Assembly: GCA_030062745.1 (NCBI GenBank)
Contig: CP099848.1
Location: 18,959,081 to 19,023,080 of the forward strand
Reading direction: 5' to 3'
Source: Capitulum mitella
Taxonomy: Eukaryota > Arthropoda > Thecostraca > Pollicipedomorpha > Pollicipedidae
DNA length: 64,000 nt
This document shows, one piece after another, positions 2,180 to 51,275 of this stretch. The position numbers were made by a program, and so were the translations under genes. Under the pieces are notes generated by a model, which was not told the origin of the DNA, made no database searches, and saw only the letters and a program-made list of their open reading frames with translations. Positions within the stretch are counted from its first letter, which is position 1; every line of letters begins with the position of its first letter.

Positions 2180-3135
2180 GGGTGGCAGATCACACGAAGA
2201 ACACGCTCAAGAGCTGTCGAGACCCATGGTAAACCACCTGAACACAGGGTGTACGAAAAATATAGAAGGGTGATATGTAGACAGCCACCGAAAATGGAGG
2301 AGATACACTGGCCTGCCCACAGACAGCACGGAACGGAGGAAGGAAAGTATACAGACGCGCTATTTCCCCACGCTTAACATAACAACCGTCGCATATAAGA
2401 AACGTCGAAGAGTAAAACCAAAACGTCGCCTGCTGCTTTTTTGCCTCTTTATCTTTCGTGCCTCGAGACCTGCGACGGCTATTGCCTTCACGGTAACGGC
2501 GTGGTGGATACGAATGTTCAAAATTGTGGTTAATCCGCCGTACGATCTGAAATGCAGCCCTGACAGCAAACCACGCAGGCTAAAAAACACCGCAGAGATA
2601 GGAAAGCGAAGAATCGCAGCACACGACGCAGTTAAAAACAGCAAACGGCGGCCACACTCAAGTCAAGTGTGATGTTCCTGCCGTACCGAAATCCGCCTGC
2701 AGCCATGCCGAAAGGACAGATTCTGCGTTCTGCGCGCCAAGATAGCGTTCCACAATGTGACGCAAAGACAGGCATCGGGAGCGTCGTGGCTCCAGCATAG
2801 TATTACATTGTTATGAACACCAACAAGCACAGTCGCTCAATTAATGATGCATTCAAAGGCTAAAAACAACAGTCAAAACATGATTCAGTGACAGCGGCAG
2901 TAAGTACACGTCGAGACATGGCGAAATGGTAAGCTTACAGATACGACCCTACCAAGTTCAAGAAGCTGTGCGCGTTTGATTTGTAAAAGCGCGTAGTGGA
3001 CGTAAAAAGTCGACATTCCTAAAACAGTTCAGGTAGGTATTGCACAGAGTGGGTATACGAGCAAACAGGCAACGCCGGACGGTATTCACCCGAGTAAAAG
3101 GACACTTCGCAACACGAGGGCACGCGATGGGCGCC
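2180..3135. other. Unannotated non-coding stretch
   Basis: Average composition, with only one 94-codon minus-strand ORF (2360-2644) of unremarkable sequence. I see no gene, RNA or repeat. Confidence 0.45.
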
Positions 3136-3139
3136 AAAC

Positions 3140-3475
3140 GTAACGCCCGGCGGCGCGCTGTCAGGCGAGATCTGTCCGCCTGACAGGCGGGCCGGTCTCG
3201 GCGGTTCCGGCAGCGCCTGCGGCCGCCGCCTGACAGCGGATCCGGGTCGCCCGGGGCCGCCGGACGCCGGGCCGTGTTGACAGAGGCCGGCGATAGCGTC
3301 CGCCGAGCGGCGCCGTCATCTCGGCCGGGACTTTTACCGGCCGGCGCGGCCCTCGAGCCGTCAGATAGCGTGTCCTGATGTCCGGCGACGCCAAGGGCAG
3401 GCTGCAGCGCCGGCGGGGCAATGGCAGGTCAGAGAGGTCGGCGTCACCGGCCTTTCTACGCCAGATGTTGAGCAC
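3140..3475. other. CpG-rich island
   Basis: Abrupt change to dense CpG with CCGGCC and GGCCGCC words. The overlapping ORFs on both strands are Arg/Pro/Ala-rich shadows of GC composition. Possible promoter or enhancer island; no transcription start is visible. Confidence 0.55.
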
Positions 3476-11364: not shown

Positions 11365-11580
11365 CTCCTGGGGCGGCCGAGAAGACGCGGTCGCCGGCGG
11401 CCGGGCCCGGCGGCGGCCGGAGCCGGAGCCGAGCTTTACGAGCCGCGGGAGCGTGGGACGCCGGCCGACGGAAGTTGCAGGGCGACCGCTTCTCACGCTG
11501 CAGGCGGCGAGACGCCGAGAATTGGACCCGGAAACTGCGCCGGCCACCACGTCCGCGCTAATGGCCGCTCCCGGCGCCCC
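11365..11580. other. Small CpG-rich island
   Basis: Dense CpG with GGCGGCCGG words, and a TAATGGCCGC word (11559-11568) of the YY1-like kind seen in other islands. It abuts the 21-bp minisatellite immediately downstream. Confidence 0.5.
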
Positions 11581-12270
11581 TCGCCCGCTCCCATACTACT
11601 CTCAGCGGCTCCCACACCGCTCTCAGAGGCTCCCTCATGCCGCTCTCAGAGGCTCCCGTGTCGCTCTCAGAGGCTCCCATACTACTCTCAGCGGCTCCCA
11701 CACCGCTCTCAGAGGCTCCCGTACCGCTCTTAGCGGCTCCCACACCGCTCTCAGAGGCTCCCATACTTCTCTCAGAGGCTCCCGTGTCGCTCTCAGAGGC
11801 TCCCATACTGCTCTCGGCGGCTCCCACACCGCTCTCGGAGGCTCCCTTACCGCTCTCAGAGGCTCCCGCGTCACTCTCAGAGGCTTCCATACCGCTCTCA
11901 GAGGCTCCCGTGTCGCTCTCACAGGCTCTCATACCGCTCTTAGATGCTCCCACACCGCTCTCAGAGGCTCCCTTACCGCTCTCAGAGGCTCCCACGTCAC
12001 TCTCAGAGGCTCCCATACCGCTCTCAGAGGCTCCCGTGTCGCTCTCAGCGGCTCCCACACCGCTCTCAGAGGCTCCCATACCGCTCTCAGAGGCTCCCGT
12101 GTCGCTCTCAGAGGCTCCCATACCGCTCTCAGTGGCTCCCACACCGCTCTCAGAGGCTCCCGTGTCGCTCTCAGAGGCTCTCAAACCGCTCTCAGAGGGT
12201 CCCTTACCGCTCTCAGAGGCTCCCGTGATGCTCTCAGAGGCTCCCATACGGTCTCAGGGGCTCCCATACG
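11580..12270 (+). repeat. Minisatellite, 21-bp unit, about 33 copies
   Basis: The head-to-tail unit is CTCTCAGAGGCTCCC plus a variable six bases (ATACCG, ACACCG, GTGTCG, TTACCG and others). Because 21 is divisible by three and the unit lacks stops in most frames, both strands stay open for hundreds of bases. The ORFs 11357-12370 (337 codons, ALRGSHT repeat), 11637-12362 (SEAPIPL repeat) and 11558-12247 minus (GASESGM repeat) are all products of this. No signal peptide, domain or single-copy flank supports a real repeat protein. Confidence 0.95.
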
Positions 12271-12274
12271 ACCA

Positions 12275-12965
12275 TCAGTGGGCTCACATGAACCCTTTGT
12301 TCTCTCCAACTTCCACTGTGCTTCCAACACTCTGCGCTCAGGTTTTCAGGTCGCTCCCGTAGCGGTGTAGCTAGGCCCGCTCTTGAATTACCCCAGGACC
12401 GCTCCCATGGCTTCCTCCCAGGTGCTAGCGGTTCACGGACATTATGGTACCTCGTTCGCGGGCATGCGTGCACTGCGAGGCGCGCGCGCTTCTCGGAAAC
12501 ACAGCTTCCCCGAAGCCGTCTGAGTACTCCGCAGGAGCAATCAAGGCTACGAGGAATGACCTGAGGATCTGGAGAGCCGTGGAACCAGATGAAAACCAAC
12601 CGACTGCAACACACGGCACGCCGCAGCCTGGCGTGACTCCAGAGGCGCAAGGTCTTTCCAATGACGCGCTCCTCGTGAAAATCCACCACTCCGTTCAGGC
12701 GCTATGCGGGAAAAAAAACATGACGTCAAACAAAGAGACGCAATAGCATCTATTCGTGACACGATGTTGACGGCCCGTATGACAAAATGGGGGCGGAAGC
12801 CAGCAGCCGACGCCTGGAGCCGGAACGCGTGTGGATCATTCTCTCGATCTCGAAGTTTCTTTTCTTGAGTAAACAAGCAAGCTTCTTACTTCAAACAATA
12901 CGTTAATTATCAAAGCTGGTGCAGTTCACCACCTCCTTATCGGCTCCACAGTAAAATCCGACGAC
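12275..12965. other. Spacer, no gene
   Basis: Average composition. Opposite-strand ORFs at 12234-12876 (up to 151 codons) have no recognisable domain. A perfect cAMP-response-element palindrome, TGACGTCA, lies at 12721-12728. Confidence 0.4.
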
Positions 12966-33925: not shown

Positions 33926-34262
33926 CGACCAGGCAGCAGCTGCGGTACCTGCCACCAGCCGGGACTATGCAGCAGCTGCGGTACCTGCCACCAGCCGAGA
34001 CTATACAGCAGCTGCGGTACCTGCCACCAGCCGGGACCCGGCAACTGCGGTACCTGCCACCAGCCGAGACTATGCAGCAGCTGCGGTACCTGCCACCAGC
34101 CGGGACCAGGCAGCAGCTGCGGTACCTGCCACCAGCCGGGACTATGCAGCAGCTGCGGTACCTGCCACCAGCCGGGACCCGGCAGCAACTGCGGTACCTG
34201 CCACCAGCCGAGATTATGCAGCAGCTGCGGTACCTGCCACCAGCCGGGACCAGGCAGCCGGC
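33926..34262 (+). repeat. Minisatellite, 36-bp unit, 9 copies
   Basis: The unit contains GCAGCTGCGGTACCTGCCACC and AGCCGGGAC; one copy is three bases shorter. All length changes are multiples of three, so a 148-codon plus frame (33849-34295) stays open as repeats of AAAAVPATSRDY, as do a second plus frame (QQLRYLPPAGT repeat) and a minus frame (PGWWQVPQLLH repeat). Three-way openness argues for repeat structure, not coding. Each unit carries a CAGCTG E-box. Confidence 0.95.
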
Positions 34263-37544: not shown

Positions 37545-39242
37545 TTAACACGCTCCCGACTGGCAATCGGTGCCCTGCACGCCAGACTGGAGGTGGGGGG
37601 AGGCGACTGCTCCCCTCTGACTCGCGAACGGTTGGTCGCACGATGAAAATAAGCATACCGTTGGAAAGCTCGTGACATGTAGAGCTCGAAACTGGTTTCA
37701 TTTCTATTTTTGGGCAATATGTAAGACATTTGCGCCTTATAGATGTTTTCTCATAGCCAACTACATGCAACCGAGAAACGGCCTGGATCTCAAGGGCAGT
37801 GAGTAATCCTCGCCGAATGAGGGAGTGGGGGAAGGGGTGGATGCCACCCCAGTGTGAAGTGTTTCCGAGAGCACGGTAACACGGCGCACGACTGCACTGT
37901 GATATTTAGCATACCTGACGATGCATTCATTGCACATCTTTTGGGAAAAGAGTGACTCCAGGTCATCTAAGGTCACCGACCTATGACATCCTTACTGGCG
38001 GCTAGCAGAGCTATTTTTGCACTAAATGCCGTTTTTTCCTGTTTTAGGGTAATAAATGTGTATAAGCGACTGAAGACGGGCATGAAATCGGTTCAGAATG
38101 GTATTTTCATGCAAACAGGTCATTTAAGATGGGTCGATGACCATTTCAACGTAAAACGAGATCACTTACCTAAGATGACAGTTTTCAGTTTAGAACGTTC
38201 CCAAACCAGTTTTTGGCACTGGATAGGTTAAAGGAAACGATTTCAGGCCTATTTGGTTCCAAATGTGCCAGTTTTAGCTTCGGAAAGTCGACTTATAGAT
38301 CCAAAACATAAAGTTTAACCTGACCTAGAAGGCCACTGGTTGACCTGACGGGGTCGAAAGGGGTAACAAATAAGAAAGAGTCTGCAGATGCCAATGGAGT
38401 CTAATTTCTCTGATTTGTTTGATTTAAACACGGAAATGTTGAGCTAAAGACAGTCTTTTTTGCTCCACTGCACTGCAGGCGCAGGACCGAGAGCTAGATG
38501 GGATTAACAGGAACTGATTTTAGCGTAATTTTGCTGTGGTTACATGTGTCTTTTGAAATAATAAATACTCATCACCCTAGACAGCTGGTAGAACTTTATC
38601 CGCAAAAACCTGTTTATCTCCGAAGCATGCGTTTTCTTTCACACATTTGAATTTCTTAGTATCATTTGCAACTTCGGGAGCCAGCTTTGCCATTTTCTAT
38701 CCGTTCTAAGCATTCATCGCCGATTTTGATGGTGATGTATTTTAGCTCAAACAATTATTGGTGGCCTGACCTCAGGTCATTGGTTAGAGGTCATTAATAC
38801 TTTATCCAATGACGGTCATTGGATGTCTGAATCACTTCACATTCAAAATTTTACAAAAGAATTCCTTCGATTTCCTAAAAAAAAAACAAGAAATGTCTTG
38901 AAAATTGGCTCGACCTTGGGACAACGATCCGGAAGTTTCCGAAAAATCTGGGATCAGTTTTTTACATCCATCAAGATCTCTAATCCTTTGAAGTTATATT
39001 GTGATATCACGTTTTCCAAAAAAGTTACAGGGTGCTAAACTTTTTTTGGGCATAGGTTTACTTGACCTGACCTGGATCAGTGGCCCGACTGAACCTGAGG
39101 TCAAAACTCCGATAGGGTTGCAAAGATGATCAAGCAAAAGCCACACAAAATTTCATGGCTCTACGTTTGTTTGTTTCCTCGCAATTTTTGAGTCGCCTTT
39201 GGGGGTCAAACTCCCCCTTTCCTCCATTCGGGGTCAGGTTAA
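37545..39242. mobile_element. TTAA-bounded MITE, family 1, copy A (~1.7 kb)
   Basis: Flanked by TTAA on both sides (37545-37548, 39239-39242). The left end reads TTAACACGCTCCCGACTGG. The right end, reversed, reads TTAACCTGACCCCGAATGG, an imperfect terminal inverted repeat starting with TTAA. A second copy of the same family lies at 48230-49432. Shared interior blocks include CGAACGGTTGGTCGCACGAT, GGCAATATGTAAG and CCGAGAAACGGCCTG. A TTAA target plus C-rich ends is typical of the piggyBac superfamily. No transposase frame is present, so it is non-autonomous. This copy has about 500 bases (roughly 37810-38365) missing from copy B. Confidence 0.8.
38767..38779. promoter_or_regulatory. Everted AGGTCA repeat inside element A
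   Basis: TGACCTCAGGTCA is two perfect nuclear-receptor half-sites, back to back with one base between. The same arrangement occurs at the equivalent place in copy B (48964-48976, one mismatch) and in element C (41129-41141). Binding is inference. Confidence 0.5.
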
Positions 39243-39925
39243 TAAATGTTCGAAAATGATCGTCCTGCTTGCAGGGGATAGATAGACTGTGAGAAGATGG
39301 GCGGCAAGTTCCACTCCGGTTCTGGACGGAATCATCTGTCTGAAATGTGAAATAATGAAATTGTCTTTTATGTTTAAGTTATAATCGCACGGTGAGGCTG
39401 GAATTGTCGTATTTAAGCATCATAAAGTGGTGCAAAGATTATCTGACCGCAGACTGCTAGATTTTTGTCAAGCTTGAGCGTCATTAAAAGATTAACTGGT
39501 CAGTTGCCAGGATTTGCAACCACACTTCACTTCTTGGGCAATGTGCGTTGAAAGCCCTCAGCAACTCCGCCGACGTAGCTAACGGACGCATCTGACGTAT
39601 TCAAACGGCAGTCTGTTGCCCGTAATGGTACAGCCCCAGGCCTGCCAAACTGTTGGGCTTCAAAGTTATCTCTGAGGTCACATCCCACGTCAAAGACCAC
39701 TATTTAACCATTTGGGAATGCCGTTTTTATGCAGTGATTACAGACATCCTGAAGCCAAAATACGTATACGGGGTATGCATTCAACATTAGTCCATATCTG
39801 TCCGATGAAAAAGATATTATAGGTCAAGCTAAGCCATCCTATACCAATAGGTCAATTAAACACCAGTTTGTGCATAATATGATGCATGAAGTTACATGAG
39901 CTACATAGCACTTCAGGAATGCATT
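39243..39925. other. Spacer between two mobile elements
   Basis: Average to AT-rich with no ORF. Phrases such as GGTCACATCCCACGTCAAAG and GGTCAAGCTAAGCC resemble the style of the neighbouring elements, so it may be part of an older, unrecognised repeat. Confidence 0.3.
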
Positions 39926-41331
39926 TTAACCCCCGCCGGGCCGGCCTCCGGACCCACCTTCGCAGGCCTTTGGGCTCATCATAGCCCCCATCCCCCCAGA
40001 CATCTCGAGAACTGCAAGTTGCACATAAAGAGTAAAAACACCGTTGCAAAGACCTTTGCGAAACTAAAAGAAAACACCCAGATTTAGTTCGGTCAGATCA
40101 GCATTGAGGTCACCGCAGGTCATCTTAATTCTTTTCACTTGTTGATATTTTTGGCCAAAAACCGTGATAATCAAGTCGTTTATGTGTCTCCAAAGAGGTT
40201 AGACGTGAAACGAATGTCTGATTTACCTCTCTAGTACAGTAAACGAGCACCGGAGGTGAAATTTGGCCATGTCGCACCTAACTGAGCGTGAAGTAAAGTA
40301 TTCCCTCTTTTTGTAAGGGCAGAAATCTCGTTTTTCCCTTTCCAAAATAATGTGTTTCGACTCGATCAAGCCGCAAATGTATTTAGGATGCATATCAGAG
40401 CTGCAGCTATCATATTAATGTCAGACAAGGTTAACCTAGATCAAACTTTCGACTCATATAGATCAGGAGTTTCTGATGTCTGTCGTATCATCTTCTGCAT
40501 TTCCATTAATAAGATACGACAACATAAAATCCTTCAACATCGGTTTATGTAATACCCGTTCTGCGCCACAAAACTCAAGCCACAAAGCATTTTCCTCACG
40601 TAAGTCACACAGACACCGAACGACGTGCACCACCTCAACGTAAAAGCCTAATATTTGATGGGAAGTTATTTTAGGGACGGCCAAGATTTTTACTTTGGTG
40701 ATAAAAAAATAAGAGGACTGGGGCAATAAAAACTGAACAGAAGGAAAGCATGGATGTGGTTCTGATCATCTGTGGCCATATATGGTGTGTACGCATTGAA
40801 AACAAGGAGCATTTTTCAGAATGTCAAATAAAATAAGCCTGGGACAAATCGAATTAGGTAACTCTTAGAAAGTAAGTTCATACTATATATCAGTACTTTT
40901 AAAGCACTTTTGGCGGTTGATAAAAATTCAAATGCTGTAAACTGAACTACACTCAGTCGCGGGTCTGAAATTTCAATACAAAACGTGGCTTGACCCTAGG
41001 TCACGAATCAGAGGATAAATTTATGCGTAAAAAGGCCGTTAGAAGCACCAGGACGTATGTTCAACTCGAAAACCACTAAGCTAAGCTCACAGTCCCAACT
41101 GATATCGCGAAAAGGCCAAAAACGCAGTTGACCTAAGGTCACCGGCCTTGACATTTCCGGAAAAAATCGAGATGACAAAATTACTGCGTTTATCTTGTTC
41201 CGTCAGTTTAGCAAGTTTTATGGTTTTTGACACAATGTGTAAAAGGGATGAAAACGAACCCCAAATTTTATGTCTCTGCGCCCCTTCGTTTCCTGGCCGT
41301 CCTCGAAAACCGGAGGGAAGGTTCTCGTTAA
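39926..41331. mobile_element. TTAA-bounded MITE, family 2, copy C (~1.4 kb)
   Basis: The left end is TTAACCCCCGCCGGGCCGG followed by CCTCCGG. The interior matches copy D (41781-43331): ATCTCGAGAACT, GAGGTCACC with GGTCATC, CATATAGA or CATATATC regions and GGTCAAACTTTCGAC-like words. The right end is eroded. A TTAA lies at 41328-41331 after CTCGAAAACCGGAGGGAAGG, aligning with the end of copy D, but its inverted repeat is poor. No transposase. Same TTAA rule as family 1. Confidence 0.65.
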
Positions 41332-41780
41332 TGTCCAGGATTGGCGATGGTTAGTGCATCTCAAACAAGGTGTGTTTCCAATGAATTTAAGCGTTGTGGT
41401 AAAATTGCATGTGTAGGTTTTATGCTGAAAAGGTCGTCTTTCGTGCAGCACGAGAGGTTATGTTCTTTGAGGTTATGCAAATACTGATAGCGGACCGCAA
41501 ACAGGTAATCATGGTTTGGAACCAGTGCAAGTGTTAGACGTCGAGATCAACCCGATATGGTGAGGTGACGGCAGCAACAGAAGTTTTGCTTGCTGCCTGG
41601 TAGTTGACCTCGTGTCTGGTCTCCTCCGGAGACGGAAAATCACGTAGTAATATTGACAAGTGTTGATGAATAACCGGCTAAATAAATCAACACTAAACAT
41701 CTATCTAGGCCGGAATACCTCTACGTAGGAAAGATGAGGAACGTTTACTATTAGGCAGAAAAAATTAAGGAAATACGTAA
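41332..41780. other. Spacer between copies C and D
   Basis: About 450 bases of average composition with one 63-codon minus ORF. No feature recognised. Confidence 0.35.
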
Positions 41781-43331
41781 TTGATCCTCACCGGGCCGGC
41801 CTCCGGCAAGGCCGGCCTTTACACCTTTGCCTGATCCGGGGTATGGATGAGCACCCCAAAGATCTCGAGAACTTAAAGTCCCACAGTGGAAAAAAACTAG
41901 AAGAAATCAGTTATTTTTTCAATAGGTCAGTACTGAGGTCACCAGGGTCATCATAGGTAAAATCATCCTAGTGTCATTTTTGGTAGAAAACTTTGATAAC
42001 CAGGCTTCTACGTGGCTCCAGAGAGGTTTAACAGTAATAAGGGGTTCTGATTTATCTTCGAGGATGGAACAGGGGCCCTTGAAGCCAAATTTGACCATGT
42101 CAAGGGAAAAGGAAAATGGATGCAGGAAATCAGGTTTTGCGTGGGCAGTTGACTTGTTTTTTTCTGAATGTATTGGTATGTGCCTTGGGTGGAACACGCC
42201 GCAAATGTGTCTGACACGCATATAAAACCTGCAGATATCATATATCAACTATATCTGCAACTATCACGAAATCAAACAAGGTCAAACTAGGTCAAGGCAA
42301 TGACGCCAATACGTCGAGCGTTCCTGGTGTCTGACGCATCATCTGCTACATTATCGATCTACATCTAGGAGATCAGACACGACACAACATAATATTCTAT
42401 AACATCGGGTCATGTAATAACGCTTTTACATCATGATGCACGTGCCGAAAAGCATTTTTAAGGTAAGTCACTTGGGTCTTGGGCGGCGGGCAGGTCCACA
42501 ATGCAAAAACCTAATATTCAGCGGGAAACTTTTTTCGCGGCTCAAAGGTTTTTATTTTGACGGCCAAAAATAGGAGGGTGATTGCAATACACACTGCGTA
42601 GAAGTAAGCCATTTTTGTAGGTCTTATCACTTCTTGCGATACAAAGTGTGTTCACATTGAAGACAGGAATGATATTTCAAAAGATCATATGAGAACATCC
42701 TGGGTCAAACTGAATAGTGTCACCCTTGGTAAGTGTCTTTTCACGCATTAGTATTCTATATACATATGACTGCCAACCAGCATTTCCCGACTGCGAACAG
42801 AAGGATTGTGCTCGGTTACGGGTCTCAAAACTTGCTATGAAGCGTGACCTAACTCCAGATCACCGGTTAAGGGGAACAATTATGCGTGCAAATGACGCGA
42901 GAAGCTCCAGGGCGTATTTCCAAGTATCAGAACTGCGGAACCAGCTTTACAATCTTGATCGCAAATGTAAAAAGGCCGAAACTTTAGCTGGCCTCAGGCC
43001 AATGATCTGGACATTTATGAAAAAAATACTCGAGATAGAAGAAATGTTTCATTTGTCATGTTCTTTCAATGTGGCAACTTTCATGTTACTCGGTGCATTC
43101 GGCATGAAGTGCATTCGGCAAATTTTATACTAGTTCCATTTTTTGGAACATGTCGTTATTTGACTGTCCTAGGTCAATGAACTGGGGTGACCCTGAGTTG
43201 AAGAATTTCACGAGGTGTGAAAATGGCGTATAAAAGGTACTCCAAGCTTTGCATTCCTGAGTCTTTTCATTTTCAGTCATCCTAAAAAAACTGAGGGGCT
43301 GCTCATCCATCCCCGGCCCGGCAAAGGTTAG
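41781..43331. mobile_element. TTAA-type MITE, family 2, copy D (~1.55 kb)
   Basis: The left end TTGATCCTCACCGGGCCGG and the reversed right end CTAACCTTTGCCGGGCCGG form an inverted repeat of the same type as copy C. Each target TTAA carries one substitution (TTGA, TTAG), so this copy looks old. Both ends also share GGATGGATGAGCA or TATGGATGAGCACCCC further in. An extra GC-rich segment at 41800-41840 lengthens the left end. A 138-codon frame (42717-43133) lies inside and shows no transposase motif. Confidence 0.7.
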
Positions 43332-44094
43332 TCGAAAGAAAGTCAAGTCAGAGCCCATGGGATATTACAGAGAAACCTCTGGGCAAAAGCAACGGCAGTC
43401 CAAACAGGGCAATCACAAGTCAGCAGAGGACCAGTCGAAAGTGGACCTTGGACTTCATCGAGCGAGGGGCTTCACCGATCCTGAAGGCACAGGCGAACCG
43501 TTGCTAAGCCATATGTGCGTCGCATGCAATATCTTTGGGATAATTCTATGGGATAGCACAATTGGAGGATAATCCAAGAGAGTCGGAGCTCCAGAGGACC
43601 ATGCATCACGTGAGCTCCGCTCCAGACGAGCCCGTGGCAGGAGTCGCGTGACCCGTCCACGCTCATGTACCGTTGCACAGCGTTCGCGTGCCTGTAACGC
43701 TGGTTCAGTGACGCTTTTAACGGTTCCATTTGGGCTTTCACCATCGCCCTTGTTTGCTAATTGCGACGATACATCTTGTTATGCACGAAATTGTGATCCA
43801 CGAAATCTGAAGGATTTTTTCTTTTTGAACGCCAAAGTGCAATTTTCCATGTTCCAATCTTTGGCTGATGCGCTATGAAATCAGTCTGAAATTTCATCGA
43901 ATTCATGACCAGTACAATTAAATACTGATCAATTCATTTTTTTCACAAGAAAATTACGCCTTTGAGCGGAAATTAGCCGAAATGTATTGACTAGTTTGGA
44001 GACCCTCCAAATTTTAGACAACAAAATTTATACATCAATGTTGTTGTTCAACAACCTTCCAAAAATCCATGTTACACCGCAGTGGCGGCAGTGT

Positions 44095-44124
44095 AAGGTT
44101 TTACGTACCAGTACGTAAAACCTT
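44095..44124. repeat. Perfect 14-bp inverted repeat, 2-base loop
   Basis: AAGGTTTTACGTAC and GTACGTAAAACCTT are perfect complements separated by CA. The tight palindrome may be the centre of a cruciform, a terminal relic of a mobile element, or a small hairpin. Confidence 0.92.
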
Positions 44125-45329
44125 GAATCTATTTGAATGTTCAACAGGCGTTTAAGACAAGCTTAACCTGAATCTTGTTGGGAAGGGGAGGGGGAAGGCG
44201 GCTTTAGACATTCTTGCGTTTTCCTGTCATATAACTCCGTAACCGAGAGGTGTAACGTCGCCAAATTTTCAGTACCACTCAGTACATGGACTGTGTACAC
44301 GTAATAAAAATAAATGTCATTCTTATTCATTGTCTATAAACACCATCGTAGAACAGCGACGTTGTGCGATTTCTCCAGCTTTACGGATATGCTTTACGTT
44401 TATTGATGCGCTCATACTAGGAGATGGCCAACGGCGCGCCATATGTGTTAAAACGTTATAGAGGTTAATATAGACCATCTGAGGCCTCACACAATACCAT
44501 CACGGGCTAAATTCACATGACTGCAATTTAAAAATGTCGATTTACACCACAAAGCTAATCGAGACAGCAATTTCCGCGTTTTCTGGTTTAGCATGAACAT
44601 TTCAAAACATATGACGGGGTTTTATGGTACATATTGTGTTTTACGCATTAATTAGGGATAACTGAAGCTCACATATAATGCGCTTGTAAGTAGCGCATGA
44701 TCTAGCTTGACCCGCCGACATTTTCTCTAGGTAGGCATGCTTTATCATCTCGTGCATACTTTTACACTTACTCCAACTCTATTACGTCTGCAGTCCCCGA
44801 TACATAAAACAAATAGCACTCGTCAAATCGGTCAAATATTGACCTTCGATGTGATCATCACTTGATAGGTAATCTTGGGATACAAAGGTGACGTGAGCGA
44901 GGGTACACAATCGACTTAACTACTCCGGGAATGACGTTTCCGCACTCCGCTGTCATTTTTCAATAGCATCCACCAATCCGATGCAGGCGATCATGCTGCC
45001 ATGTATAAAATTTAGCTCCCGTGGACTTAATTCCAACGCTCGCCTTGTATCAGCTGCGCAAGAAGTTTGCCTCAGTGAAATATTATTTTCGACTACACGA
45101 AGCCATTGTGTGCACACTGGATGTTCTTCTTTTCCTGCAACTTGAAAATGAAGCTGGCATAGGGTAACCTTGGTTTTTGATACACTATATTCTTTTGATG
45201 GGTTATCTAGGAAGAGGATGTTTGAAGTCTCTTCCAGTGCCTCTGTGGAGGGCAGATAGTGTATGTTGCATAACACAAAACTAACAACGAAAAATTGCTA
45301 CGCTCTGGCACAAATAAAACCAGTTAACA

Positions 45330-45371
45330 CTAATGGCAGACAATGGCAGACTAATGGCAGACAATGATGCA
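45330..45371 (+). repeat. 21-bp tandem duplication
   Basis: ACTAATGGCAGACAATGGCAG occurs twice in tandem, the second copy ending slightly differently (ACAATGATG). Internally, AATGGCAGAC repeats as well. Confidence 0.8.
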
Positions 45372-45868
45372 ATCGGATTAGGGCCCGGCAAACGGTGGCC
45401 ATGGGTTTTCCTTGCCAGCCACTCAGCCGCTTGGATTCAGTAGCAGTACTTGGTTATGTAGGTTTCATCAGAGAAGGACAGCAGACGCGTTCTTTGGCTT
45501 TTTTCGAAATTTTACATGATGTCTATGGGACTATGGGACTTAACCCTATTCCCGGCAAGGGGGGCGGAATCCGCCCCCCATCGGGTTTTTTGCTTGCCAA
45601 TTCCAGACTTTTTAACGCAGCTTCACGAAATTGGGTGACTTTTCCTAGCTATTCCTTCTACGTGCCGTGACAAAATTTCGAAATTCTATTTTGCTCAGGG
45701 GCGGAGCCAGGCAACGTTTTTGGGAGGCACCTCATGCCATTTTCGGCCATGTTAAGGGTAAAAGGAAAATGTCTGCCAAAAACAGAGTTTTTAAGATAGA
45801 ACTTAAAACTTTATATGGATGTATAGCTAAATAGTTGGGCAATGTTCAGATATAGTTTTGTTTTCCTG

Positions 45869-45898
45869 AGGTCATTTTACAAGGTCAGGTCAAGGTCA
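45869..45898 (+). promoter_or_regulatory. AGGTCA cluster inside element E
   Basis: AGGTCA occurs at 45869-45874, 45882-45887 and 45893-45898, with an extra overlapping GGTCA at 45888-45892. These are four nuclear-receptor half-sites in 30 bases, all on one strand. Confidence 0.5.
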
Positions 45899-46172
45899 AA
45901 ATTTAAAATTTGTTTTTTTCGCAATAATTTCGGTGCCGTTTTTTCAAATGCCAAACCCGGAATATATATGACGTAGAAGGGTGCCTTCTACTTGTGTACC
46001 AAGTTTCAGCTTGATATCAGGTCGGGTCACGGAGCTATGATCTAAAATGTCAGTGCGCGTACCCTATATCGCAATAGCCATAAAACGAAATTTTTGAAAT
46101 AGAGTGAATTCAAATGATTGAAAACGTTTACAGATAATATTAAATGCACACGAGATCATTCCAAGTGACCCC

Positions 46173-46206
46173 AAGGTCACTGGAGGTCATTTAAGGTCAA
46201 AGGTCA
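46173..46206 (+). promoter_or_regulatory. DR1-type AGGTCA array inside element E
   Basis: Half-sites AAGGTCA, GAGGTCA, AAGGTCA and AAGGTCA lie in a row. The last two form a perfect direct repeat with one spacer, AGGTCAAAGGTCA (46194-46206), the textbook DR1 element bound by RXR, HNF4 and COUP-type receptors. Function here is inference. Confidence 0.55.
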
Positions 46207-46924
46207 CAAGTTGATCTGAGAAACGTGTGACCATGACAGTTCCCCCTTTTTCATGTCCCTGGCACCGCCTATGCTAACATTATACAAACATTGTAATGCG
46301 ATTTGTACTTCTTTAGTATAACAGGACTAGCAGAAGCCAAAAAAGTGTGTTTGCCTCTTTTGTTCATCCAGTTGTTAGAAAACTAATCTTCCTATTTTTG
46401 AAACCCTGTGAACGCCCATGAATTTTCTCAAAATTTCAGATTTGTGGACCCATGGTAAAAGCCCTATCCATAATCTCTCGATTCATGCCAGTTTCATCGA
46501 AATCGGTCCATAAACAATGGAGTTATAAGAAGTGCAAAAGTACCCCCCATTTTGACATTTTTGCCCCCCTGTATCCACAAATTTCAAAATTTTGGAAATT
46601 TCTTTTTATAAAAATGTAGTTCACGTCACGGCAAATCGATTGCCGTTTGTTGCGATGAAATCGAACGAGTAGTTCTCGAGATCTCAGGGGGGGCCGAATC
46701 CGCCTCCCCTGCCGGGAATCGGCCATACCGTCTAGCCCTTCGGGAATAGGGTTAAATAAAAAAAAACAGCTGCAAACATCACTGTTCCTCACACTAAGCT
46801 CTAACATTGCTCAGTTGCACCACTTTGATTCGCACTAGCATTAAATCAAATTACATCTACTAAATCGGCTAAACTGACCTTCGCGGTTCTCGGGAGGGCT
46901 TGTGGTGGGTTATCTTTCAAACAA

Positions 46925-47045
46925 AAGGACTGGACATACCTTACTTATGCAACAGCATAAAGACAGAGTGATTTGAACCCGCAAGCTGTTGTTGACATGC
47001 TCTGCACCTTTGACCTGTGGTTTCTTATTTCCAACGGTAAACCAG
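46925..47045 (-). mobile_element. Possible tRNA-derived SINE remnant
   Basis: On the minus strand GGGTTCAAATCAC (46970-46982) resembles a pol III B box, and AGGTGCAGAGCATG, about 25-40 bases upstream, resembles the D-arm/A-box part of a tRNA. The flanking arms do not fold as a tRNA, so an intact gene is excluded. A decayed SINE is the best guess. Confidence 0.3.
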
Positions 47046-47660
47046 TATCCTAAAATATCTGTACTGAACTTGGCAAAAACAAAACATTTTGGCGAAAATT
47101 GCCCAAAAGAATTATCCTTTGAATCGTGGATAACAAATTTAAGCACGGTTTGTATTCCTTTGCATACACATTTTCTTTAGGATCTTCTAGAAGTCTGTAA
47201 AGCATGTCATGATCGCCAGGTACCTACAGGGTTGTGGCAGTCAAATCTGACTCAATGCTAAGTAAAAAAGGACATTTTCCTCGTAGTGATACAATATACA
47301 AAGACCCTTTACCTCTGAACCACAGTGTAGCACATACAGAACCACAGCAGATTACATTTTTGCGTCTTCTTTTCCCGGAAATTCTCCTATAAAAACGTTA
47401 AAAAATTACGTCATAGCTTAACACAGTCTCTTCACATTCGTTAATCTCAGATAGATATGCATGGTTGCACAGATCACGTTAAGAAAGAAGTTCAAAATAA
47501 CATAATTCGTTTTTTCCAACCATTTGTCCTCTTCATTTACAGCTGAAGAATTGCTTATGCATGCACATATTGCACTATCAAAATTGGTGCCGTATCAAAC
47601 GCCGATTTACCGGGGAACAGGGCAGTGCTGACAGGTCGTAGACCAGCCTGCCCTGCCCGG

Positions 47661-47683
47661 GTCTGGTCTGGTCTGGTCTGGTC
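47661..47683 (+). repeat. (GTCTG)n microsatellite
   Basis: Four to five perfect pentanucleotide repeats, followed by GTCTTGGCTGGTC variants. Confidence 0.9.
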
Positions 47684-48229
47684 TTGGCTGGTCAGCCCGG
47701 CTCTTGTTACCGAGACCAGAGGAAGCCACCGTCTCACGTACACCGAATGATAACCGGGCTTTCAACGCTTGTAAGCACAATGACGAATAATGATTAAGAT
47801 AGAGAAGAGAAAACTAGCTGCTACAAGATAAAGAGCGTACTGTTGGCATGGTCACAAAACAAATGACGAAATGGTCTCTTGTGACAGAACTATTATTCGC
47901 CAGGGCCGATAATCTTAACAAAAGATGATAAGTTCTGGGAAGCACGTCCCGGCTCATTGTCTGTCGGAGATTCCCTTTTCCGCAACGTACTGGAGCAGAG
48001 TCTCAGGAAAATTAAATCTTCTCAGCCCTTCTCTGTCGGCTGTTCCGCCCCAGCCTGCGTTACTGGTCAGAAGGGCCTTTATTGATCGCATCGTTTCATG
48101 TCCCCATTGCATAGTTCATGTGCACATTGCATCCACCGAGACTGCTCCATCCGTTTCCTCCCGTGCATTCCATCCTACTGCTTTAGGCGTTACATGCCGC
48201 ACATCCAGCAGTCCACCACCCGACTCCAC

Positions 48230-49432
48230 TTAACCCGCGCAAGACCGTCGGTCGGCGACGATCACGCCCGACGGCTGGCCGCCCCCCCCCCCCTCAACTC
48301 ACGAACGGTTGGTCGCACGATAAAAATAAGCACATCGCTGGAAAGCTTGTGACGAGTAGAGCTCTAAAGTGATCTCATTTTTAGCTTTAGGCAATATGTA
48401 AGCAATTTACGTCCCATATGTATTTTCTCACTGCATGAGACCGAGAAACGGCCTGAATCTCAAGGGCTGTGGTTAATAATGCATAGGTAAAGGTACCAGC
48501 GCACAGGTAAAGGTCCGCAGATGCCGATACACGTCTAATTTCTTAGATTTGTTCAATATGTACGCCGAAACTCCGAGTAAAAAACACGGCAGTTTTCACG
48601 CCGGCTGTTGGCGTGCGCCGCATCCGTACGCCGTCAGAAATTAACGGGAACTAATTTTAGTGTTCCTTTATTTTAGCGACATAAGCCTATCCATGCAAAT
48701 TTTATTGATCTTAGTGGTTCTTGTGATGGTTTCTCATGCTGAAATTTTGGGAAAAATTATTAGTTACCAATCTACACAATTGGCCGAGCTTTATTCCCGA
48801 GAGCCTGTTTATTTCGAAGATATGCAATTTTTTAAAACTTTTTGAGGTTCTCGGTATTACTTACGTCTGTGGAAGCCAGTTCTGCTATTCTCTATTCATT
48901 CTGAGTAATTCGTCGCTGATTTTGACGGTGGTACATTTTAGCTCACAACAGTTATTCGTGACCTGACCTCAGGTCCATGGTTGGAAGTCATTGATACTTT
49001 GCCCAATGACGGTAACTAGATGTCTGCTTCACTGCACACTGAAAATGTTGCGGAAAATTCCGCCAATTTCCGAAAAAACGACGACATGTGTTAAAAATGG
49101 ACTTGACCTTAGGTCAATGACCCGGAAAATTACAAAAATCTGAGATTGCAGATTTGTTGCATCTATCAAGATGACTAATCTCTGAAAGTATTATTGTGAT
49201 ATCTTGTTTGCGAAAAAGTTACAGAGCGCTAAACGTTTTTGGTCATAGGTTCGTTTGACCTGACCTAGGTCAGACATCTGACTTAAACTGAGATCAAAAC
49301 TTTGACACAAGGTGTAAAAATGATAAGCAAAAGGCGCACGAAGTTTCGTGGCTCTGTGTTTGTTTGTTCTCTCACAATCCAAGAAAAACCTCGGGGGGAG
49401 CGGTCAACTGCCCCCCAGTCGGGGCGGGTTAA
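48230..49432. mobile_element. TTAA-bounded MITE, family 1, copy B (1.2 kb)
   Basis: Second copy of the family seen at 37545-39242. It is bounded by TTAA at 48230-48233 and 49429-49432. The left end TTAACCCGCGC and the reversed right end TTAACCCGCCCCGACTGG agree with copy A, and CGAACGGTTGGTCGCACGAT follows at 48302. GGGGGGAGCGGTCAACTGCCCCCC, a near-palindrome, lies just inside the right end (49393-49416), like the G/C palindrome of element E. A C11 run sits near the left end. No transposase. Confidence 0.8.
49261..49272. promoter_or_regulatory. Zero-spaced everted AGGTCA site in element B
   Basis: TGACCTAGGTCA is a perfect 12-base palindrome of two half-sites. The equivalent in copy A (39068-39079) is mutated to TGACCTGGATCA. 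Confidence 0.45.
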
Positions 49433-51275
49433 TCAAGTGTCGGGTACCCCATCTCTCCTACCCTTCAGTCCTCCTGTCCACATGGACTAGTCCTCCAGTC
49501 CTGTTCCACACCCTCCAAACGTCCCAGCCCACCTTCCCTGTTGTCCCAGGCCATTTCTCCAACTGCACCTCTCCGCTTTCCCGCCTGTCCCTCGTCATCT
49601 TCCCCGGCCCGGCTCTCCGTTCCCTGGGCAATGCAAGTCGGTTATAGGCCGATGATTCCGCTGTTTATTTCCCCTCATTACATAATGCCCGCCCACAAAT
49701 GATAATGGCGCAGTGGGCGGCCACTGGGCAATGGGCGTAATGATGTCAATAGACCCACGGTGATCTATGCGCTGTCCCGAGGCGCTGGCCCGCCGCGTTT
49801 GGCTACGGGTGACGCACGGCGCGCGATGGTCGGCCCCGTCGCAGATAGCCGCCATGGACCATTTATTTTCTCGCAAGGATAATTGCGAACGCAGCTGGGC
49901 GGGCGAGCGACTATGCTCGGTGGACAGGCGGCTCTTGGGCTGTGTGTTCGCAAACACCAGACGATCTGCGGTCGCCCGAGCAGGCTTGAATGTGTGCCGG
50001 GCACGGGGCGGGCGGGCGAGCAAAAAATGCGGTGCATTCTGTAACGTCAAGAGCTAGAGGGGAGACGTCAACATCACACTAGGGAGGGCGAGCAATGGGT
50101 GCTCGCGGGAACGTCACCGCCGCTTTTGGAATCCAGCCAAAGGCGCCATGGTCTGCCATTATCACAGTATGCACACAGCGCACCGAGCGTCATGACAAAG
50201 TCGTTGTTCAGGTTCGCGGTATGTTTGTCGGGAAGCCAGAAGTGCGCTGATGGAAAAATGTGCATTCATAATTCGAAGCAATTTCTTCTCGGCAGACAGA
50301 AATCACAGATGGACACACAAGCACATAAGTATGAGAATCGCATGTCAGGCAAAACGTGACGCAAGATGCATAGATCTACTGCGCGTGATGCAGCATTCCC
50401 TTAAGTTATCACAGACATGTGAAGGTCATCCATCGCGACAGCTTTAATGAAAGCACATTAGTGTCACATCTCGACAAAGTCTATGATGGTCTCGTGCTTT
50501 CAGTTTTCGACCGCCCTGAAAAATTGTGGCGTTGCACGGACCCGAAGAGATCCTTGCTTGCATCACAAAAACATCGTAATGATAAGACATTGCTATTCAA
50601 GAAGACAGCTTCGGTTCTCTGCCGCCGTCGGTCGTGACAAAATCTTCGCGATGTAAATGAAAATGTCGAGTCATACATTCGCATCTGGTTCATTTCTCAT
50701 GGTCGCCTCCCAGTGCAGCGAGTGTCATGCCACGCACGTTTAAGTTCAGTTCGTTTGGCAAAATCTGACACCAGTGCCGCTCCTCAAAATAAACGAAGTG
50801 GTGTTCTGTGTGAATCACGTCACGCCACTTGGCAGGACGCCGTCAGATGTGAAGAACACGTGGTGAATCTGTCGGGAACTTGTCAACTTCACTCCTCCGC
50901 AAGCCCGTATTCCTCTTCCAGCTTTTCAGCCCAGTTATTCACCATTAGTGAAGCCCGCTTTCACCCTCCTGTGTCCGATCTTAACATGAACCGCATGCAT
51001 GTCCTTAGGCAGGATAACTCCCGCGCAAGCGAGGCAATTTATGGCTCCTATGTGAACTCCTCGTCTCGTCAGTACCAAGATGAAATTGCAAGGATGTGAC
51101 CTTCCCTGTTTTTTTTTTCTGCCGTTTGCTCGCCTGCCGCAAGTATTGGCCTTCAGATAAACTCTGCGTATGTCTGCGTGATATCGGACACACCCGCTCT
51201 CAAACTCCAAGGCATACGCCATGACCGGCTAGCTGCTGTGTATACCGTCAGCATACACTGGCTGAACTCCGGCGG
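49433..51275. other. Spacer, no confident gene
   Basis: About 1.8 kb of average composition. The 128-codon plus frame at 50713-51099 lies outside islands and repeats and has mixed amino-acid composition with a Ser-rich middle, but no domain is recognised. It overlaps a 95-codon minus frame. Not called as a gene. Confidence 0.35.

Follow-up and report, generated by a model that had tools for sequence, protein, structure and literature searches.

Arrays of nuclear-receptor-like half-sites in related TTAA elements of Capitulum mitella

In a 64-kb window of the Capitulum mitella genome (64,000 nucleotides of contig CP099848.1, the whole stretch being referred to as the window), several transposon-like elements delimited by TTAA carry repeated copies of the nuclear-receptor half-site AGGTCA. 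The question raised by this locus is why elements assigned to different families should share such sites: by descent from one ancestor, or through some service that the sites render to the elements. An earlier note, made from the sequence of the window, had offered both answers. The analysis described here leaves our judgement evenly poised on a reading that joins them, in which one clan of TTAA elements bears a predicted receptor-binding array, kept during active life and decaying after insertion.

AGGTCA occurs 71 times in the window, against 22.1 expected from dinucleotide shuffles (maximum of 100 shuffles, 32). Within the element region (36.6–51.2 kb) there are 47 occurrences versus 6.7 expected, and the hexamer ranks first by over-representation; to the left of this region the count is 14 (11.5 expected) and to the right 10 (4.7 expected, a twofold excess). 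As in response elements, half-sites exceed chance within the individual elements: 11 in A (5 of them in the nested element F), 5 in C1, 6 in C2, 8 in E and 7 in B, with 0.45–0.88 expected. The weakest excess is that of C1, whose count was reached in 3 of 1000 shuffles. The flanks of the hexamer are weak, with 0 bits just 5', 0.07 bits just 3' and no more than 0.29 bits in each of the 28 flanking positions (14 bases on each side).

All of the elements lie on the + strand. Element B (48230–49432) and element E (45540–46755) both run from TTAACCC to GGGTTAA, E being a member of a young family and inverted relative to B and C. Element A (37545–39242), with TTAA at both ends, is a diverged relative of B (blastn identities of 79% over 37612–37807 and 74% over 38551–39185), a kinship for which an A/B hidden Markov model (HMM) gives further evidence. 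Nested in A is element F (37805–38367), a repeat family of its own, whose window copy retains the 5 half-sites mentioned above; its excision rejoins A at TTAA and restores continuity with B, in which the same TTAA is empty at 48473. The old C family is represented by C1 (39926–41353), with TTAACCC at 39926 and a decayed 3' end, and by a second copy, C2 (41783–43332), in which the 5' TTAA is lost. At 50272–50977 lies diverged sequence that matches the 3' half of C2 (z 5.1, or 5.7 once the sites are masked) and is probably another decayed C relative.

TTAA at both ends with differing flanks was found for E, B and the nested F; for C, TTAA was seen at a single 5' end and at the 3' end of the consensus. 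The elements have terminal inverted repeats that start with CCC, with a common G/C hairpin at the TTAACCC ends of B and E, and in part in C and F (the C 5' consensus is without TTAA, and the F 3' repeat was not resolved). The hairpin inside the termini is common to the B, C and E ends, the 5' end of F is of like design, and the termini of different families match one another. No stop-to-stop frame of at least 150 amino acids was found between 34918 and 49594. Judged by these sequence features, A/B, C, E and F are non-coding TTAA elements, namely miniature inverted-repeat transposable elements (MITEs) of piggyBac type.

Pairs of half-sites are designated here as direct (DR), inverted (IR) or everted (ER) repeats, followed by the spacing. 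The TGACCT–AGGTCA pairs highlighted in the earlier note were everted (ER1 and ER0); classical palindromic response elements have the inverted IR1. The exact ER1 TGACCTNAGGTCA is indeed present at 38767 in A and at 41129 in C; the former (TGACCTCAGGTCA, 38767–38779) is homologous to B 48964 and to positions 1052–1069 of the C consensus, and the latter (TGACCTAAGGTCA, 41129–41141, in C1) to B 49104. The sequence at B 48964, also cited as an exact TGACCT-N-AGGTCA, is actually TGACCTCAGGTCC, with one mismatch, the only one of six such statements to be off, and the exact palindrome of B is at 49104. There it forms part of a module of three half-sites, TGACCT-T-AGGTCA-A-TGACCC (ER1 plus a near IR1; 49104–49123), which is homologous to C consensus positions 1197–1216. 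The zero-spaced TGACCTAGGTCA is exact at 49261 in B, within TGACCTGACCTAGGTCA (DR-1 plus ER0; 49256–49272).

Element E contains, as had been noted, four AGGTCA on the + strand within 45869–45898 (DR7, DR-1 and DR0) and an exact DR1 at 46194, the latter in a second + strand group of four at 46174–46206 (DR4, DR4 and DR1); both groups are entirely in the E consensus. Overlooked at that stage were element F itself and DR4, the commonest spacing, which occurs on the + strand in F (AGGTCA-TCTA-AGGTCA, 37960–37975), in C1 (40107–40122; the C consensus has a DR4 trimer at 173, 183 and 193) and in C2 (42279–42294). In C2, AGGTCAATGAACT (43171–43183) matches RGKTCANTGAMCY, which we take to be the pattern of EcR response elements (EcREs). 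This degenerate pattern has two fits in the 64 kb, and the exact AGGTCANTGACCT is absent from the window; exact IR1 was seen only in the consensuses and in some fetched copies.

The genome (477 Mb, 16 contigs) was searched for further copies. A first look gave 6623 candidates for the 3' part of B, 7406 for E, 1208 for C2 and 849 for F, which are not to be read as copy counts; 40 of each were scored, and matches were found. Besides the elements themselves, the scored matches of B reached 88–91% and the main ones of E 94–95%, and 39 other scored places matched F at 72–77%. Of 30 B loci, the 24 that extended nearly to both ends were aligned, the window copy among them; for E, all 30 of the 30 loci were used, of which L060 is a longer compound. 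The C alignment comprised 12 sequences (C1, C2 and 10 of the 39 further places scored) and that of F 7 (F itself and 6 of 39 further places scored). TTAA was present at both ends in 27 of the 30 E and 15 of the 24 B sequences, the remaining B sequences having a changed or unaligned end.

A consensus check had been named in the earlier note, and the half-sites were not absent: exact AGGTCA occurs 10 times in the B consensus (1220 bp), 9 times in that of E (1217 bp), 14 times in that of C (1531 bp, with DR4 pairs, the DR4 trimer and an exact IR1, AGGTCAATGACCT) and 12 times in that of F (an alignment of 588 bp that includes some flanking sequence, with two exact AGGTCANTGACCT and two DR4). AGGTCA is the top hexamer in each (z 14.1 for B, 12.6 for E, 16.1 for C and 22.8 for F). 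The B sites, at 743, 748, 755, 888, 895, 1042, 1047, 1053, 1070 and 1077, include three ER1 pairs and one ER0. When the window copies were left out, the counts were 10 (B), 9 (E), 14 (C) and 10 (F). Because the copies average fewer half-sites than the consensus (8.2 in B, 8.5 in E, 6.6 in C and 5.0 in F), the sites are ancestral to each family and in the course of being lost. Mean divergence from the consensus is 3.2% for E, 7.1% for B, 15.8% for F and 16.9% for C, and the arrays are thus present in families of differing age.

The earlier statement that three different families share this syntax holds for the sharing; the difference between the families was overstated. With half-sites masked in the target, family HMMs matched B to C (6e-26 over the 3' 327 positions and 2.9e-8 at the 5' end), B to E in inverted orientation (4.2e-8), C to F (2e-5) and B to F (0.0014). 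Reciprocal masked searches from F were weak, at 0.0015 to B and 0.17 to C. Masked matches were obtained with window copies as well; the HMM of the window-copy B reached F only via the half-sites. Since the families match with their sites masked, the shared syntax is explained by descent, one of the two alternatives originally proposed, and its independent origin in three families is rejected. When the A/B and C window copies were aligned with sites masked, 18 site columns were shared versus a mean of 1.6, and only the true rotation of 644 reached 18, the sites thus being in register. For B versus inverted E, 13 columns were shared versus 2.1, a value reached in 77 of 1433 rotations and not significant at 5%. 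By these alignments, the half-sites predate the split of A/B and C; for E, kinship was found but not register, and F is the weakest link. A forward match between C consensus 309–372 and E consensus 187–252 (E value 2e-4) conflicts with the inverted order of the E ends relative to C and B, and hints at an internal rearrangement.

When the B and C consensuses are compared, identity is 84.7% over 12 site hexamers and 56.7% over 382 others, and 0 of 20000 random sets of 12 reach the former value (P 1.5e-4 against non-CpG hexamers only). The sites were visible while this alignment was built, which works in their favour; the masked tests serve as a control and are weaker. The interior of E does not align significantly to inverted B when the sites are masked (z 1.5, reached by 14 of 200 shuffles) and does so when they are visible (z 3.2, 0 of 200 shuffles); despite this, E holds its 9 half-sites where 0.46 are expected. 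Better-kept sites would also be indicated by pairs of window copies, with identities of 86% versus 67% (17 comparisons, a result reached by 0 of 5000 random sets) and, for C1/C2, of 74% versus 60% (11 comparisons). An initial comparison between families that used single window copies (57% versus 47%, 138 of 5000 random sets) is superseded by the consensuses. Because the half-sites outlast the surrounding sequence (B versus C, and indirectly E), use while the elements were active is suggested, and descent alone seems too little to explain the arrays.

The picture after insertion is given by the 24 B sequences, a sample that was weighted above the window-copy pairs. Here divergence is 4.9% at sites and 5.6% at the remaining non-CpG positions of that stretch (P 0.32); against the whole-element rate for the same bases (7.2%), the sites seem better preserved, but so does the entire stretch. 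Use in active elements followed by roughly neutral decay after insertion would fit these figures, as a reading and not a proof. The proposal that the sites serve the elements has gained from the conservation between the B and C consensuses, which does not separate a receptor from a transposase as the user. An internal duplication of ~150 bp behind the three B clusters was also considered and found weak (scores 14, 11 and 13.3 versus shuffle maxima of 12.6, 13.6 and 12).

The spacing of pairs in the four consensuses was compared with jittered positions in 20000 runs. DR4 was the commonest, with 8 pairs versus 1.09 in the controls (0 of 20000), and IR1 (3 versus 0.36, P 0.005), ER1 (3 versus 0.44, P 0.009) and DR-1 (4 versus 1.08, P 0.02) were also enriched; DR1 occurred once, at chance level. 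The favoured spacings recur with different spacer sequences. DR4 and IR1 are canonical receptor spacings, and ER1 and DR-1, also enriched, are non-canonical. ER1, which the earlier note had stressed, is the least receptor-like of the enriched spacings, and was demoted as the chief receptor syntax, DR4 being commoner and IR1 equal in count. Receptors of the EcR/LXR/FXR group, partnered with RXR, use DR4 and IR1, IR1 being the canonical form of the EcR-USP response element. According to PMC5494300, DR4 is among the elements from which insect EcR-USP activates reporters in yeast, and the pair of one insect works best from it; PMC10345098 describes ER1 as "exceedingly infrequent" for GR. The genome itself gave 49 matches to nuclear-receptor zinc-finger exons; to name EcR as the specific receptor would be a guess.

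According to the receptor-array reading, the ancestor of the clan of A/B, C, E and F would already have carried AGGTCA half-sites, and the array would have been kept while the families were active and lost in copies about as neighbouring sequence is. The most likely reason for its being kept would be binding by host nuclear receptors, among which an RXR-partnered dimer of the EcR/LXR/FXR group is the most plausible binder in view of the enrichment of DR4 and IR1. Receptor occupancy might hold the elements in open chromatin, or might have driven transcription of a lost autonomous ancestor; the genome-wide spread of receptor-like sites would then be a by-product, open to use by host regulation. 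In a more specific version, the clan would have captured an EcR/RXR-type dimer as a cofactor, and the DR4/IR1 arrays would gate or enable mobilisation, or expression of the ancestor, at hormone pulses. This we regard as rather unlikely; if true, amplification would track the endocrine cycle and would have filled the genome with ready receptor sites.

Several observations weigh against the receptor-array reading. The spacing counts are not fully independent, the families being related; ER1 and ER0, which are no usual receptor sites, are as prominent here as IR1, and one of the two IR1 in F is lost once the window copy is left out. IR1 is unlisted among the strongly active elements of Drosophila EcR-USP (ER6, IR0, IR4, DR1, DR4 and DR5) in the available part of PMC5494300. 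The excess conservation is weaker in the best-aligned B–C part alone (81% versus 65%, P 0.02, 9 site hexamers), and the masked B–C consensus alignment gave 20 shared site columns versus 4.8, a count attained by 19 of 504 rotations if the true one is counted, with several sites slipping by a few bases and a site-column identity of 39%. Half-site variants found in the window copies include AGATCA (14), GGGTCA (10) and AGTTCA (4 versus 4.7 expected). Among AGGTCA variants in the window elements, transitions are enriched (45 versus 20) and transversions are not (42 versus 38), a pattern that tracks transitions, not receptor tolerance, as neutral decay predicts.

A possible but doubtful alternative is that the half-sites bind the elements' own transposase, as palindromic internal repeats for the transposition complex, the likeness to receptor sites being coincidental. 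According to PMC11707139, piggyBac-type transposases bind repeated near-end palindromes through paired zinc domains, and such binding would suit the enriched ER1 palindromes, the TTAACCC...GGGTTAA ends of B and E, the conservation of half-sites between families, the position of 4 of the 12 sites of the F consensus within ~50 bp of its 3' end, and the presence of piggyBac transposases in the genome, where the scoring of 116 out of 267 candidates gave 118 matches. However, nine bounded piggyBac-type elements among 12 loci read, all with clear TTAACC-type inverted ends, hold only 0, 1, 2, 1, 0, 1, 2, 2 and 2 half-sites in 2.7–2.9 kb, which speaks against a general transposition need. Judged by eye, the ends of B, C, E and F are absent from all nine, and the true autonomous partner may therefore lie unseen. 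The B sites, moreover, are ~140–480 bp inside one end, with none in the other 740 bp, and half-sites are abundant also in the tandem repeats of another family (G).

Unlikely, in our estimation, is descent only, in which an AGGTCA-rich ancestor would have passed on an array without function. The masked-site matches between families, the transition-biased decay in the window copies and the lack of clearly better site preservation among the B copies would all be expected from it, and it has to contend with sites that outlast their surroundings between family consensuses, with nine sites in an E interior that does not otherwise align, and with favoured spacings that recur with differing spacers. 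The earlier suggestion of hormone-responsive enhancers, with copies retained for host use, is the most improbable of these explanations. Exact dimers do persist in many copies (DR4 in 26 of 30 E, ER1 in 22 of 24 B), and receptors are recruited to transposon copies at Alu DR2 sites (PMC1785376); yet the 24 B copies have no clear excess of site conservation, hence no clear sign of host retention in that sample.

The receptor-array reading may be set beside known systems. The retinoic-acid and thyroid response elements (DR2/DR4) of primate Alu are likewise a case of a transposon spreading consensus receptor sites in very large numbers (PMC1785376). The Alu DR2 arose mainly in copies, through CpG decay of a non-consensus motif, although seven AluS subfamilies have a consensus DR2; here, in contrast, 9–14 half-sites are in the consensuses of non-coding DNA elements, are conserved between families, and are fewer on average in the copies. 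The MITEs of the coral Acropora (CMITEs; PMC2872659) are alike in their TTAA target, their piggyBac-type ends beginning CCC and their several families with different terminal inverted repeats, and have a conserved interior of unknown origin suspected of aiding transposition. They are ~100 bp long with one 75-bp conserved block, of which the printed 60 bp lack AGGTCA by eye, whereas the present elements are of ~0.56–1.5 kb and have dispersed six-base sites in common.

The ends of piggyBac and piggyBat (PMC11707139) share the TTAA target and repeated internal palindromes, which are transposase-bound there; in piggyBat, the motifs are others and lie within ~120 bp of the end, whereas the present sites match receptor half-sites and are in many cases hundreds of bases internal, some of those of F being subterminal. 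Arthropod EcR-USP response elements (PMC5494300) are alike in their AGGTCA halves and active DR4, and E carries AGGTCACTGGAGGTCA, one base off the DR4 reporter AGGTCACAGGAGGTCA. Unlike them, the present arrays lie within transposons, include everted ER1/ER0 pairs and are known from sequence alone.

The spread of receptor sites by transposons is already known from Alu. Here the sites are built into the design of the elements, are kept across families of differing age as other sequence turns over, and have a partly receptor-like spacing. The dependence of a transposon lineage on a host receptor becomes testable, and candidate hormone-response elements would stand ready-made in large numbers in an animal genome. 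Among the matches listed in the open-licence PubMed Central literature, none had a title or abstract concerned with arrays of receptor half-sites in TTAA elements.

Half-sites are also abundant beyond the studied families. After A/B/C/E/F-like sequence was masked, the flanks of 58 B and E loci (140 kb) still held 153 copies of AGGTCA versus 64, which places it third among non-palindromic hexamers. Part of this excess is accounted for by family G, an AGGTCA-rich tandem repeat with a unit of ~150 bp, DR0 pairs included (3123 first-look candidates, 40 scored), which was found at L030:2900–3290, L035:2970–3450, L045:360–1020 and L060:1281–1504 and 2715–3160. A likeness of family G to the bivalve BIV160 satellite was considered and dropped, there being no half-sites in the searched text of the paper. 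A scan of viral contigs for the ER1 module gave 6 loci, approximately chance by our own estimate, with a half-site density of 0.4–2.3 per kb. Clusters of four half-sites matching none of the studied families were observed in the flanks at L039:1168–1225, L047:321–469 and L053:703–945. Ten open frames examined as clues to the host had no Pfam match. In the window, two minisatellite arrays (11580–12290 and 33927–34258) have units that are ~80–95% identical and open in long frames.

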